Positions 19,152-38,878 of a DNA stretch of 38,878 nt are shown here, piece after piece. The notes under the pieces were generated by a model. It searched no databases. It was not told where the DNA came from and worked only from the letters and a program-made list of their open reading frames with translations. The stretch covers positions 1 through 38,878 of the forward strand of contig CAJXVQ010000004.1 of assembly GCA_913060685.1 (NCBI GenBank), given 5' to 3'. Source of the DNA: an uncultured Verrucomicrobiales bacterium (lineage in GTDB: Bacteria; Verrucomicrobiota; Verrucomicrobiia; Verrucomicrobiales; Akkermansiaceae). The position numbers were made by a program, and so were the translations under genes. Position 1 is the stretch's first letter, and every line of letters begins with the position of its first letter.

Positions 19152-21389
<2,238 letters not shown>

Positions 21390-29588: not shown

Positions 29589-32500
29589 ATGCTTCACCGA
29601 CTCATTGTCCCCCTTTCCTTCCTTGCCGCGTTCTTCCAGCCCATTCTTGCTGCGGAGGAAACCAACAAGCCGATCAGCTACTACCAGGACATCCGCCCCA
29701 TCTTTCAGGCGAACTGTGTCGGTTGTCATCAACCCTCCAAGGACAATGGCGACTACATCATGACCGATTTCAAACGCCTCCTCGCTGGCGGTGAAGATGC
29801 GGTCGCAATTGTTCCGGGAAAGCCTGATGAAAGCTATCTCATCGAGGAAATCACGCCCGATTCCGACGGTAAGGCGGAAATGCCCAAAAAGAAGGACCCT
29901 CTTCACGAAACCGAAATCGTCCTGATTCGCCGTTGGATCACCGAAGGAGCAAACGATGACACTCCGGAAAACGCCCGCCAACGTTACGATCAGGATCATC
30001 CTCCGGTCTATACCAAGCCTCCCGTCATCACTTCGCTCGACTACTCACCGGACGGAACCTTGCTCGCCATTTCAGGCTTCCATGAAGTCCTTCTCCAAAA
30101 GGCCGACGGCTCCGGTCCGGTCGCCCGCCTGGTGGGACTTTCCGAAAGAATCGAGTCAGTTCGTTTTTCGCCCGATGGCACCAAGCTCGCGGTCACCGGT
30201 GGCCTCCCCGGCCGCATGGGTGAGGTGCAAGTCTGGGATGTCGCGAAAAAGGAGCTCATCCTCTCCGCCCCCGTCACCTTCGATACCATCTACGGCGCCG
30301 CCTGGTCCCCCGATGGCACCAAAATTTCGTTCGGCTGCTCCGACAACACCGTCCGCGCCATCGATGCCAAATCCGGTAAGCAGGTTCTCTTCCAGGGAGG
30401 GCATAGCGACTGGGTCTTCGACACCGCCTTCAACCCGAAGGGAGATCACGTCGTCTCGGTGAGCCGCGACATGACCGCAAAGCTGACCGAGTTCGCGACC
30501 CAGCGCCTCATCGACAACATCACCTCGATCACCCCCAATGCCCTCAAAGGAGGAATGGCGGCCGTGGTCACGCACCCGACCCGCGACGAAATCCTGGTCG
30601 GCGGCTCCGACGGAATCCCCAAGCTCTACCGCATCTTTCGCAACACTCCCCGCAAGATCGGTGACGATGCCAACCTCCTCCTGGAATTCCCGCCCATGGA
30701 AGGACGGATCTTTGCCGTCGACATCTCAAAGGACGCCCGCCGCATCGCCGCCGGCAGCAGCTTGAATGGCAAGGGCGCGATCCACATCTACGAGGTGGAT
30801 CCCGATGCCAAGATCACCAAGGAAATTGCCGAAATCATCAAGAAGCCCACTCACGAGCGCAACGACGACATGCGCAAGAAGCTCCAGAAATACTTCGACG
30901 AAAGCGTCAAAACTCTCGCCACCTTCCCGGTCGCGGAGTGCGGAATTTTCGCGGTCTCCTTCAACCCCGACGGTTCACGATTAGCGGCCTCCGGAGCGGA
31001 CGGAAAGGTTCGTATTCTCGATGCCTCGAACGGACAGCTCGTGACTTCGTTTCTTCCCGTCGAAATCACGCCCGATTCCGAAGCCGCTCGAGAACAAAAC
31101 GATGGCCCCGCCAATCTCGATAAACGTTTACCTCTCGATCCCGAGCAAATCCCGGAGGGTCGGACCATCGTCAGCCTGGACGTCCGGCAGGAAGGCATCA
31201 AAGGCCCGATCAAGATCGACACCCCGTATCGCTATGCCCAGGTCATCGTCTCCGCCGAACTCGATTCCGGAGACATCATCGACGTCACCCGCATTGCTCA
31301 AAACAGCGTCGAAGGTGACCACGTCACCATCACAAACACCGGCGTGGTTCGCGGAGTCTCCGATGGCAACTCCCGCATCAAATTCGCAATCAACGGAAAG
31401 AGCGCCGCAATCGCGGTGGAGGTTTCGGGCATGCAGAAAGAATTCATTCCGGCATGGACCAAGGACGTCAACCCGGTCGTAGCCCGCATGGGTTGCAATA
31501 CCGGAACATGTCACGGTTCCAAGGACGGCAAAAACGGCTTCAAGCTTTCCCTCCGTGGCTACGATCCTCTTTACGACGTCCGCGCGTTCACCGATGACAT
31601 TGGCTCACGTCGGGTCAACCTCGCCTCCCCCGATGACAGCCTGATGCTCCTCAAAGCCACCTCCGCCGTGGCCCATGAAGGAGGTCAACTCACCAAGCCT
31701 GGCGACGACTATTACGAGATCGTGCGCGCCTGGATTGCCAACGGAGCGAGGCTGGAGAAAAAGCAGACCAAGGTTGCCAAAATCGAGGTCTACCCGATCA
31801 ACCCTGTCGTTCAGAAAATCGGCTCAATGCAACAAATGCGGGTCATTGCCACCTATCCAAGTGGAGAAACACGCGATGTCACCTCCGAAGCTGTCGTCAC
31901 CAGCGGAAACGGCGAAGTTGCCAAAACAGTGAAGGGGTATCCCGCGCTCATCAAAGTGGTCCGCCGTGGCGAAGCCCCCATCCTGGTTCGCTACGAAGGA
32001 GCCTACGCCGCTACCACCGTCACCGCGATGGGCGATCGCAGCGGCTTCGCGTGGACCGATCCACCGAAGTTCAATGAGATCGACAATCTCGTTGCCCAAA
32101 AATGGCGACGCATAAAGACTCTTCCTTCCGAAGTCTGCACCGACCCCGACTTCGTCCGCCGCATATATCTCGATGTCACCGGACTCCCTCCGACGGTCGA
32201 GCAAGTGAAGTCATTTCTCGCCGACACCCGGCACTCCCAGGTGAAGCGCAACGCCTTGATCGACTCCCTCATTGGCAATCCCGAGTTCATCGAATTTTGG
32301 ACCAACAAATGGTCCGACATGCTGCAAGTGAATCGTAAATTTCTGGCCCCCGAGGGAGCCAAACTTTTCCGAAGCTGGATTCGCAAGGAAGTCGCCGACA
32401 ATACGCCCTACGATGAATTCGCCCGCAAGGTCATCACCGCAAGCGGCTCCAACAAGGACAACCCTCCCGCTTCCTACTACAAGATCCTTCGCACTCCGGA

Positions 32501-34694
32501 GGACACCATGGAGAACACCACCCACCTCTTCTTGGCGACCCGTTTTAATTGCAACAAATGCCACGACCACCCCTTCGAACGGTGGACGCAGGACAACTAC
32601 TACGAAATGTCCGCCTTCTTCGCCCAGGTCGGCCTCAAAGCAGATCCCGCGAGTGGCAAAAGTAAAATCGGAGGCACCGCCGTGGAAGGAGCCAAGCCAC
32701 TCTACGAAATCATTTATCAAAAGAATGATGGCGAACAGAAGCACGAGCGGACAGGCGACATCACGGCTCCGAGCTACCCTTACGAAGCCGACCACGTCGC
32801 GAAAAAAGACGCCAGCCGCCGCGACAAACTCGCCGAGTGGATGACCTCCCCCGACAACCGCTACTTCGCCTCGAGCTACGCCAACCGCGTTTGGGGATAC
32901 ATGATGGGAACCGGGATCATCGAACCACTCGACGACATCCGAGCCGGCAATCCTCCCTCCAATCCCGAGCTTCTCGATTGGCTCGCCAAATACTTCATCG
33001 AGAGTGACTTCGACATTCGCGAGCTCATGCGCGTCATTTGCAAATCACGCACCTATCAACTCTCGATCAAGACCAACAAGTGGAACGAGGACGACACCAT
33101 CAATTTCTCCCATGCCAAGGCCCGCCGCCTTCCGGCCGAGGTTCTTTACGACTCCATCCACGCCGTCACCGGTGCCAGCAGCAAATTCCCCGGCGTTCCC
33201 AAAGGGACCCGCGCCTCCTCCCTCCCCGACGTCGGAGTTAGGCTACCCGATAGCTTCCTTGCAAACTTCGGCCGCCCCGTCCGTGAAAGCTCCTGCGAAT
33301 GCGAACGCAGCAGCGAGATGCAACTCGGGCCGATCATGGCCCTCCTGAGTGGCCCGACCGTGGGCGACGCCATCTCTGATCCCAACAACGCCATCTCCAA
33401 GCTAGCCAAGGAATCCAACGATGATCGCTCGCTCGTTGAGGGATTATTCTACCGCATTCTCAACCGCCCCGCGACCGAACCCGAAATCAAAGCCAGCCTT
33501 GAGGCATTCCGCGCCGGAATCGACCAGGACCAGGCCTCTCTCGAGAAAGCCCTTGCTGCACACCTCAAAGCGCGCGATCCCGCCACCGCCGCTGCTGAGA
33601 AGAAACGCGAAGAAGACATCATCGCGAGCAAAGCTGAGATCGCCGCCCATGAAAAAGCGATCAAACCCCAGGCCGATGCCGCTGCGCAAAAACGAATCGA
33701 AACCATCGCACAACTGGAAAGCGAAAAGAAAGCCTACGACGCATCCCTTCCCTCCAAGATTGCAAAATGGGAACAGGAACTCGGCAAGGGAGGCACCCCT
33801 TGGACCCCACTGAAACCTTCCGAACTTAAGTCGACAAACGGAGCCCTCTTAACTGTCGAAGCTGATCAAGCAGTCATCGCGACCGGTAACAATGGCCAGA
33901 CCGACTATCTTCTTTCCGCACCCACGGACTTGAGTGGCATCACTGCGATTCGACTCGAGGTGCTCGCCGACGACCGCCTTCCCGGTAAAGGCCCGGGTCG
34001 CCAAGCGGGCAACTTTGTCCTCGGTGAATTCGAACTCGAAATCGCTCCGGCACAGGACCCCAAAAAGTTCCAACGCGTCAAGTTCAGCACCGCCAAAGCA
34101 AGCTTCAGCCAGCAGAACTACGAAGTCGCGAAGGCCATCGATGGCAAGCCCGGTGGCCCAAACGCCGGGTGGGCAATTTCTCCTCAGGTCGGCAAGAATC
34201 AAACCGCCCTCTTTGGAATCGGCCAGCCTATCGGACACACTGGAGGTAGCATCCTACGTTTCACCCTCAAGCAACCCTTCGACAACGTTCACACGCTTGG
34301 AAAGTTCCGGATCTCGGTCACGACCAAGCCAGGCCCTCTTCCCTTCGGCATTCCGGAAAACATCAAGCAGTCACTCGCTCTCGGCAAAGAGAAGCGAAAC
34401 GACAAACAAACAGGGGGAATTACAAAATATTTCCGAGATAGCGACGCCAGCCTGAAAGCTCTCGACCAAAGCCTGGCCAACGCGAAAAAGCCCCTCCCCA
34501 TCGACCCCAAACTGACGAATCTTCGCAAAGGACTTGTCGAGCTCGAGAGTTCTCCCCGGGCTGACCCACGACACGACCTGCTCCGCAAAGACCTCGAACT
34601 CAGTACGAAACAACTCGTAGACCGCCGACTCACCGGCGCCCAGGATCTCGCCTGGGCTTTGATCAACACGCCCGCCTTCCTCTTCAATCACTAA
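29589..34694 (+). CDS. Multihaem DUF1549/DUF1553 protein with WD40-like repeats
   Basis: 1701 residues with signal peptide ending ILAAEET. N-terminal planctomycete cytochrome domain (PSCyt1-like): CVGCH at 43-47. WD40-like repeats, about 130-510, are marked by [20 protein letters not shown] and [10 protein letters not shown]. An Ig-like segment precedes a second cysteine site C636-x4-C641-H642 ([11 protein letters not shown]), a spaced motif common in this family. DUF1549 (about 830-1040) contains C988-NK-C991-H992. DUF1553 (about 1130-1390) has the [12 protein letters not shown] block. A coiled-coil region (about 1330-1400) and a beta-sandwich region separate the two last parts, an unusual insertion within the C-terminal DUF1553 end ([10 protein letters not shown]). 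Function of this family is unknown; electron transfer and polysaccharide degradation are suggested by context. 23 bp precede the DUF1501 gene. Confidence 0.95.
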
Positions 34695-34717: not shown

Positions 34718-36187
<1,470 letters not shown>

Positions 36188-36217: not shown

Positions 36218-38878
36218 ATGAGGTTGACCCACCAATTCTCCATCCTGATCTTTGCACTTTCGGTTGCGGCTTATGCCGAGCCGAAGGATGAATTGATCCC
36301 GCTCCGCTTGAAGGAGATGCAGCGACCTGACCGACTCACGGGCGCGATAGAGACCAAAGCGATGCTCACCGGCATGTCGCTTGAAGAAAATCTCCCCGAA
36401 CCAAACGCGGATATCGCCTGGCCCGGAGAGCAATTCTCGGAAGCGGCTCTGGCACAACTTAATCGTCTGACCAAGACCGTTGACAAGGACGACATACGCG
36501 ATCTCCTCGCCGAGGATTTCGTTTGCACCCCCTTCGAAAAAGCAGGCAAACAAAAGAGCCTTTCCAAAAGCCTCACGGTTCATTCAGGAACACCGGGAGC
36601 GGCAAAACCAATGAGCTCTCAAGAACTCATGACAAAGCTGGGAGCTCTTGGAAAACTGAAATTCAAAGTCACCGGCGTTGAAAAATTGACCACCCGCTTG
36701 CATGTCGAGGCAGATCGTGACGGGGCTGAATATTCCGCGATCTGGCTTTGCTCATGGAATGACGACCTCTCCCCCAAGCTCCAAAAACTTGAAGTGGAAA
36801 ACTTCGAAACGGTCCACTCAAATGATCCATGGTTTGTCGACGCCACGAGCACTACGATCGGAACAAACCCGCGGTTTGAAGCCCAGGTGATGCGGGGCAT
36901 TGGCTACTGGTCCGAGCGCATCACCCGCATCGGCGATCTCGCCATGACGGGTCATCACGGGATTGCCGTTGGTGACGTCAATGGCGATGGACTGGAAGAT
37001 CTCTACGTCTGCGACGGAGGCAGCCTGCCCAATCAACTCTACCTTCAGCAAGCCGACGGCTCGGCGAAGGAGGTTGCCTCGGAATGGGGCGTCGCCTGGC
37101 TCGAAGATTCGCGAAGCAGCTTGTTGGTCGATCTCGATAATGACGGTGATCAGGATCTCGTGGTCGCGACCATTGCCATGATTGCTTTTGCTGAGAATAA
37201 CGGAGAGGGCAGGTTCGAGTTGAAGGGCGGATTCCCCGGAGCCCCCTACCCTTTTTCATTGAGTGCGGCTGATTTCGACTCGGATGGAGATCTTGATATT
37301 TACACCTGCATTTACAGCGCGGGAGATGATTCGGTCTCGGGGAAACGAGGCTTCGAAGCAAGCTCGCCCATTCCCTTCAACGATGCCGAAAATGGCGGGC
37401 GCAACGTTCTTCTGGCAAACCTTGGCAACTTCAAATTTGGCGACGTTACGAAGCAGGTTGGCTTGGACGAGAACAACACGCGTTGGAGTTTTGCCGCATC
37501 TTGGGAGGACTTTGATCGCGATGGCGACCCCGATCTTTACGTCGCCAATGACTTCGGGCGAAACTGTCTCTATCGAAATGACCAAGGACGTTTCGTCGAT
37601 ATCGCACCCGCAAGCGGAGTCGAGGATATGGCCGCCGGGATGTCGGTTTCCTGGGGAGACTTTAATCGGGATGGCGACGCCGATCTTTATGTCGGAAATA
37701 TGTTCTCGTCCGCCGGCCAGCGGGTCTCGTTTCAAAGGAAATTTGATGAGGGCAAAACACGAATGGCCCGCGGAAACAGCCTCTTTGCGGCGAAGGATGG
37801 AGCATTTGAAGACGTCAGCCTAAGAAGCGGGATCACCAATGGCGGCTGGGCCTGGAGTTCGGTCTTGGCTGATCTCAACAATGACGGGTGGCAGGATCTC
37901 GTGGTCGCCAACGGATATTTGACGAACACACGCGATGATGATTTGTGAAGTTTCTTCTGGCGACAGGTCGTGTCGCCCTCCGAAAAAATCGCCGATTACA
38001 CGCGCGGCTGGTCCGGCTTGATGAAGCTCGTCCGAAACGGGCACTCGTGGAGCGGGAGCGAGCGGAACCGTTTTTTTCTCAATGGCGGACAGGGAAAATT
38101 TCATGAAATGTCACACCTCGCCGGTCTCGATCAGATCGAAGACGGTCGAGGACTGGCCCTGGTCGATTGGGACCATGATGGTCGGCTCGATCTTTGGTAT
38201 CGGAACCGCAGTGCCCCTCGCCTTCGTCTCATGCTCAATCGCCACGAGAGTCCGGCATCCATCGCGATCAGGTTGGAAGGAGCCACTTCCAACCGTGATG
38301 GCATTGGAGCGGTCGTGGAACTCCTCCCCGCGATCAAAGGCAAGCGCCTGGTTCGCTCGGTGAAGGCAGGTGATCTTTTCCTCTCGCAATCAAGTAAATG
38401 GCTGCACTTTGGCCTCGGAGACAAATCAGGTTTCACCCAGGCTTCCGTGATTTGGCCCGGTGGTAAAAAGGAAATTTTCAAGGGGATCGATACGAGCATG
38501 GGTCGCTTTTCCCTCAAACAAGGGACTGGAAAGGCCATTGCCGTGGCGGCCCGCCAACCGATTCAACTTGAGGCGAATCCTCTCGCCAAGAGCTCGAGCA
38601 ATGAGGGAAACGCGAGGATCATCCTACCCGCCAGAGTGCCCTTTCCCTCTCTCACTTTTCGAGACCAATCCGCCCAACTCAAAACTCTGATCCGAAACGG
38701 AAAGCCCCGCCTTGTCATCCTCTGGTCCGGGACATGCGGACACTGTAAATCAACCTTGAAGGAGGTCTCCAGGAATGCCGATCAAATCCGTGCGAGTGAA
38801 CTCGAAGTGCTCGCACTGAGTGTCGATGGTCTCGCGGGCCCTGCTGCCGATGTTTCCCCGGCTTACAACCTCATCGAC
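36218..38878 (+). CDS. Candidate selenoprotein: CRTAC1-type FG-GAP / ASPIC-UnbV / thioredoxin-like protein (Sec577), cut by window end
   Basis: Signal peptide ends AAYAEPK. Residues about 70-200 form an N-terminal domain of unknown type. FG-GAP calcium-loop repeats follow: DVNGDGLEDLYV, DLDNDGDQDLVV, DFDSDGDLDIYT, DFDRDGDPDLYV, DFNRDGDADLYV and DLNNDGWQDLVV. The frame then reaches UGA at 37946-37948 (codon 577, after NTRDDDL). The same frame continues open for 310 codons to the window edge, with SFFWRQVV, DWDHDGRLDLWY, the ASPIC/UnbV block (SNRDGIGAVVE, WLHFGLG, VIWPGGKK) and a thioredoxin-like domain with CGHC (Cys840/Cys843). I recall Cys at the UGA position in relatives (DLCSFFWRQV). With the hairpin at 37951-37985, selenocysteine is the best reading; a nonsense mutation is the alternative. 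The family role is unknown. It lies 30 bp after DUF1501, in the same operon. The C-terminus lies outside. Confidence 0.8.
37949..37985 (+). promoter_or_regulatory. Candidate bacterial SECIS element directly after UGA 37946-37948
   Basis: Upper stem of seven perfect pairs: GGCGACA (37959-37965) with TGTCGCC (37971-37977), apical loop GGTCG (37966-37970). A 4x4 internal loop and a lower stem TTTC (37951-37954) with GAAA (37982-37985) extend it. The loop begins 17 nt after the UGA. The loop-proximal AGGUC is the same five bases as in the E. coli fdhF SECIS, where the loop G and U contact SelB. The bacterial SECIS model I recall (loop about 16-37 nt past the UGA, G in the first two loop positions) is met. 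Confidence 0.75.

Follow-up and report, generated by a model that had tools for sequence, protein, structure and literature searches.

A CRTAC1-Like Beta-Propeller Protein with a Predicted Selenocysteine in Verrucomicrobiota and Three Other Bacterial Phyla

The Locus and Its Genes

The window, i.e., the whole stretch of DNA that was analysed (38,878 nucleotides), is contig CAJXVQ010000004.1 of an uncultured Verrucomicrobiales bacterium, taken from a draft assembly of 6.93 Mb in 840 contigs that is 93.55% complete. At its end, which is also the end of the contig, lies a CRTAC1/ASPIC-UnbV family gene with an in-frame TGA that appears to encode a selenoprotein. The gene, its elements, and its two upstream neighbours are as follows.

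29589..34694, forward strand: PSCyt1-WD40-PSCyt2-PSD1 gene, the first gene of a likely three-gene cluster
34718..36187, forward strand: DUF1501 gene, 30 nt upstream of the selenoprotein gene
36218..38878, forward strand: predicted selenoprotein gene, CRTAC1/ASPIC-UnbV family; 887 codons with the TGA counted as Sec, 3′ end lost at the contig end
36218..36280, forward strand: likely signal peptide, residues 1-21 (by visual inspection only)
36818..38257, forward strand: FG-GAP/VCBS beta-propeller region (residues about 201-680)
37946..37948, forward strand: TGA within the frame (codon 577), taken as selenocysteine and placed first in predicted helix 577-585
37959..37977, forward strand: predicted bacterial SECIS hairpin, GGCGACA-GGUCG-UGUCGCC; the loop begins 17 nt after the UGA
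38300..38491, forward strand: UnbV_ASPIC domain (Pfam; residues 695-758)
38666..38878, forward strand: thioredoxin-like domain (TlpA/ResA type), incomplete at the contig end
38735-38746, forward strand: CGHC of the thioredoxin-like domain (Cys840 and Cys843)

Since the contig ends here, the encoded protein is incomplete at its C-terminus. The initial annotation, made from this DNA alone, had reported a TGA at codon 577 and 310 open codons from there to the window end, and both were seen, the frame continuing up to position 38878. It had also held that random sequence would run into stops, in agreement with the chance of about 1e-5 calculated for 310 open codons at this composition. Downstream of the TGA, the differences from orthologues lie mostly at third positions, which is the pattern of a translated frame; against L017, they amount to 15, 9, and 41% at codon positions 1, 2, and 3, respectively. 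In four other genes of the window, TGA is an ordinary stop, and the next stop follows no more than 24 codons on.

The DUF1501 gene also adjoins several orthologues, and the selenoprotein gene is likely the third gene of an operon with the PSCyt1-WD40-PSD1 and DUF1501 genes. The same cluster is present in L087, L088, L090, and L094 and is not found around most paralogues. Elsewhere on the contig, a haem peroxidase of the catalase-peroxidase type is represented by two matched stretches (window positions 19152-21371). With regard to the quality of the source draft, one contig-edge ORF (L008:4590-4666, LHRVDRRQRQMCIRDR) looks like sequencing-adapter contamination.

Domain Architecture and Fold

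Pfam searches returned six FG-GAP_3 stretches and UnbV_ASPIC, with the FG-GAP repeats and UnbV_ASPIC above the cut-off. For the window protein, whose last domain is interrupted by the contig end, AhpC-TSA scored 21.9 bits and remained under the Pfam cut-off of 26; several complete homologues pass, and some complete homologues with AhpC-TSA also carry TPR repeats. The FG-GAP repeats, the UnbV/ASPIC domain, and the thioredoxin-like CGHC that had been described 3′ of the TGA were thus found in their places.

Like the TlpA/ResA thiol-disulfide oxidoreductases (1jfu, 4txo, and 1st9), to which it is matched by profile, the family's C-terminal domain carries a CxxC, but it is a fused accessory domain here, and the predicted Sec lies in the propeller part, outside the CxxC.

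An AlphaFold2 model (mean pLDDT 82, 23 sequences) places Sec577 at the first position of helix 577-585, where pLDDT is about 78. Its top fold match is murine CRTAC1 (9etn; Z 37.9, 454 aligned residues, 2.3 Å). The protein shares the FG-GAP propeller, UnbV_ASPIC, and the fold with CRTAC1 and the CRTAC1/ASPIC-UnbV family; however, the profile alignment to CRTAC1 misses the Sec577 stretch, and the thioredoxin domain is not part of the match. CRTAC1 is not known to be a selenoprotein.

Conservation of the In-Frame UGA

Searching 58 genomes (the source and its relatives) with the read-through protein gave more than 150 matches, nearly all of which have exactly one internal TGA; in the few matches without it, residue 577 lies outside the matched span. 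In the alignment of the fetched loci, the TGA occupies the same residue. Among the 71 distinct genes first examined in the source genome and relatives, which were chosen by the surrounding motif with a pattern that allowed a stop or Cys at the site, the codon is TGA in 71/71, neither of the other stops nor a sense codon being seen there, and the motif reads D-L-U-S-x-[FYWL]-W-R with few variations. The total rose to 118 distinct UGA genes (motif D-[L/T]-U-S-x-[F/Y]-W-R; never TAA or TAG) from Verrucomicrobiota, Planctomycetota, Acidobacteriota, and Gemmatimonadota. An alignment at residue 577 had been proposed as a check by the initial annotation, and it reveals a UGA that recurs across four phyla. 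Acidobacteriota orthologues with 55-81% identity have TGA in 16/16 cases. The source genome holds 10 exact copies of the motif, and a reversed-pattern control gave a single match in all 58 genomes. Nearly all genomes with a named origin are MAGs, and no match to the protein was found among phages.

Several divergent loci were also observed. Two tandem Acidobacteria homologues (L163:4024 and L163:6485) have an in-frame TGA after D-L that is followed by LPF or LPY and no W-R, which may point to a subfamily that has diverged or to decoding in another context. A Planctomycetaceae homologue (L193:3997) has a TGA within DG*RCVWLAVV, a degenerate form of the motif in which the U+2 residue is C. In addition, two UGA genes of the subfamily that lacks the thioredoxin domain (L164:4069 and L164:6677) lie near each other on one Planctomycetota contig.

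The SECIS Hairpin

The predicted hairpin would resemble the SECIS element of E. coli fdhF in its small apical loop with GGUC shortly after the UGA; it differs in belonging to another gene and in its family loop of 4-5 nt, with a one-base register shift between two subfamilies. When only the window stretch was folded, the RNA was not unusual (z -1.3), so that comparison across the family was needed. At this place, 68/71 family genes have a stem of 5 or more base pairs whose loop opens with G. In 300 synonymous resamplings, in which codons were drawn by the family's own codon usage, such a stem occurred in 13.9 +/- 2.9 genes (maximum 24). The mean MFE is -10.0 kcal/mol in the family versus -5.7 kcal/mol after resampling, and the loop codon is GTC in 64/71 genes.

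The covariation score, calculated on pair counts, is 0.148 against 0.067 +/- 0.011 for shuffled alignments and comes chiefly from one or two among the seven pairs, the leading one occurring in six standard types. Changes on both sides were seen in 14 cells compared with 3.3 in shuffles, and the number of stem pairs with such changes (2) was not above shuffles. In the smaller subfamily, the loop is four bases long and the register is shifted by one; among only 11 distinct rows, its hairpin displayed no covariation beyond shuffles.

The published bSECIS model requires a loop of 3-9 nt, a stem of 4-16 bp, G in the first two loop positions, a distance of 16-37 nt from the UGA, and an MFE of -7.5 or lower (PMC13188914). 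The window hairpin passes these limits, as do 47/71 family genes by the strict rule, and 226 of 3000 other TGAs (7.5%) pass them as a control. At the level of sequence, conservation extends from the UGA and its motif to the hairpin and the domains that follow.

Selenocysteine Machinery

The source genome encodes SelA (4.7e-143) and SelB (307 bits against a cut-off of 242), the latter with SelB winged-helix domains. The search for sel genes put forward by the initial annotation succeeded for selA and selB; neither selC nor a selD above the cut-off turned up in the draft. No selC was detected among its 840 contigs (93.6% complete), and a DNA search of the draft with a sister selC gave nothing significant; the Rfam tRNA-Sec matches in this genome proved to be ordinary Ser, Leu, Asp, and Met tRNAs. 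For selD, the draft gave only sub-threshold matches, and one candidate (L247; 49 bits against a cut-off of 125) looks by eye like thiamine-monophosphate kinase (ThiL).

tRNA-Sec is present in most genomes of the same genus. ARAGORN reported tRNA-SeC in 20/20 loci tested from relatives, many of them from the same genus, and also in L257 and L258. In L049, L061, and L062, which belong to the same taxonomic order, selD adjoins selC. Two drafts, G039 (L054) and G022 (L066), have tRNA-Sec and no selA match, which may reflect assembly gaps or remnants. Across the 58 genomes, the UGA motif occurs in 28/37 with selA versus 0/21 without it (Fisher 5e-9, ancestry ignored). Of the Acidobacteriota genomes with the UGA gene, 23/25 have selA above the cut-off; of the other two, one holds only fragments and the second none.

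Residues Replacing Selenocysteine

Near relatives without the UGA carry Asn (L242 and L246), Gln (L237 and L238), Ser (L245), or Glu (L166) at the site, which leaves a redox function there not obvious. Cys occurs only in a distant clade, as DYC or DFC (L171, L186, L201, L208, and L211) with the motif DYC-x-x-FWRHD; neither W nor R was seen at the site among the homologues, which have N, Q, S, E, and C. The initial annotation had stated that relatives carry Cys here (DLCSFFWRQV), and this was not confirmed: near homologues have the same TGA, and the UGA-less ones have the four residues above. The expected Sec/Cys exchange thus survives for the distant clade and fails for the near relatives.

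On a midpoint-rooted tree built from 60 proteins, three changes of the UGA label are required. Both the Acidobacteriota clade with N, Q, and S and the Glu protein fall inside the UGA groups, and the Cys clade falls outside, joined by a long branch (L200) whose placement is uncertain. selA is still present in some genomes that carry the N or S form, so that not every replacement can be put down to loss of the Sec machinery.

Decoding and Proposed Function

Very probably, the gene product is a secreted selenoprotein with a CRTAC1-like beta-propeller and Sec at UGA 577. The selenocysteine reading proposed by the initial annotation is strongly supported because the UGA is conserved, the hairpin is under RNA-level selection, selA and selB are present, sister genomes have tRNA-Sec, and the motif is associated with selA. 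SelB and tRNA-Sec would decode UGA 577 as selenocysteine, with insertion directed by the hairpin located directly 3′ of the UGA.

The likely signal peptide, judged by eye, favours a periplasmic or extracellular oxidoreductase, which is the best-supported reading of the protein. Sec would be its catalytic residue, at the helix start beside the propeller strands, and the substrate might be a peroxide or another oxidised compound, which is a guess. A CxxC lies downstream in 101/113 UGA genes with enough sequence, and Cys two residues after Sec is found in 0/101 of these; among the genes without CxxC, 7/12 have U-x-C (Fisher 2e-8, ancestry ignored). This mutual exclusion suggests a resolving Cys as the partner of Sec, supplied by the fused domain or by a position beside Sec, and lends only indirect support to the earlier proposal that Sec577 pairs with the thioredoxin CxxC. 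The fused TlpA/ResA-like thioredoxin domain may regenerate Sec, and in most members without this domain, the neighbouring Cys (U-x-C) may do so.

Alternatively, Sec may be inserted and its selenium may bind a metal or cofactor in the propeller rather than act as a thiol-type redox catalyst. The N, Q, S, and E of the non-Sec relatives would suit metal or hydrogen-bond ligation, and the propeller blades of this protein contain Dx[DN]xDG motifs, a known Ca2+-binding motif (PMC3123361). However, fusion to a TlpA/ResA-like domain with CxxC points to thiol/selenol chemistry, as do the exchange of that domain for U-x-C and the Cys of the distant clade, and a ligand role is regarded as unlikely.

Insertion of a different amino acid, whether through reassignment of the codon across the genome (tables 4 or 25) or through programmed near-cognate readthrough, would fit with selC and selD not having been found in the source draft. 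It is nonetheless very improbable, given that TGA ends ordinary genes of the window and only one position per gene is affected, that the genomes with the motif have selA and sister genomes have tRNA-Sec, that the hairpin fits the published bSECIS model, and that neither W nor R was seen among the residues of homologues (N, Q, S, E, or C). Least probable of all is a true stop followed by a decaying remnant or a separate gene, for which a GTG start at 37970 and an open downstream ORF are available, as the same TGA and never TAA or TAG recurs in the 118 distinct genes, both sides are conserved in one frame with the stop falling within the propeller region, the hairpin exceeds codon expectation, and the motif is tied to selA.

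Novelty and Implications

A review of May 2026 lists 119 prokaryotic selenoprotein families or subfamilies, and most characterised prokaryotic selenoproteins have a thioredoxin-like fold (PMC13188914). No FG-GAP, UnbV, or CRTAC1 protein is among these 119. The predicted family resembles the catalogued selenoproteins in its UGA with a downstream bSECIS and in the Sec machinery but differs in its FG-GAP/UnbV propeller, which is absent from the listed families. It is also unmentioned in the main text of a 2022 review (PMC9312934), the deep-Sep paper (PMC12013277), and the GOS paper (PMC2398784), and none of the NCBIfam models (June 2026) attains its cut-off with this protein. In the open-access papers searched, none on the family as a selenoprotein was found, nor was one found for an enediyne UnbV lead. 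The claim that no selenoprotein had been described in this family agrees with its absence from the catalogue and from NCBIfam. With high probability, the window gene is a genuine selenoprotein gene and a member of a large selenoprotein family missing from the catalogues searched. In a 2025 paper, CRTAC1 family genes were reported beside hydrazine-synthase-like genes (PMC12758564).

Deep-Sep relies on Cys homologues and may miss selenoproteins without them (PMC12013277), which may be why the family escaped notice; its near non-Sec relatives with N, Q, S, and E expose this blind spot of Cys-homologue-based prediction. As long as the Sec goes unrecognised, annotation would present genes of this kind as truncated members of the CRTAC1 family or as split ORFs.

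We lean slightly towards a broader view, in which a class of Sec-dependent beta-propeller oxidoreductases, whose active site lies outside the thioredoxin fold and which has expanded in some genomes to about ten paralogues, would be a main use of selenium in a lineage of marine Verrucomicrobiota and would extend to Acidobacteriota, Planctomycetota, and Gemmatimonadota. Recognition of the Sec would add a selenoprotein family that spans several phyla and lies outside the thioredoxin fold, and it would increase the number of selenoproteins counted in these bacteria. It would also offer a first mechanistic lead on the CRTAC1/ASPIC-UnbV family, which is poorly understood.
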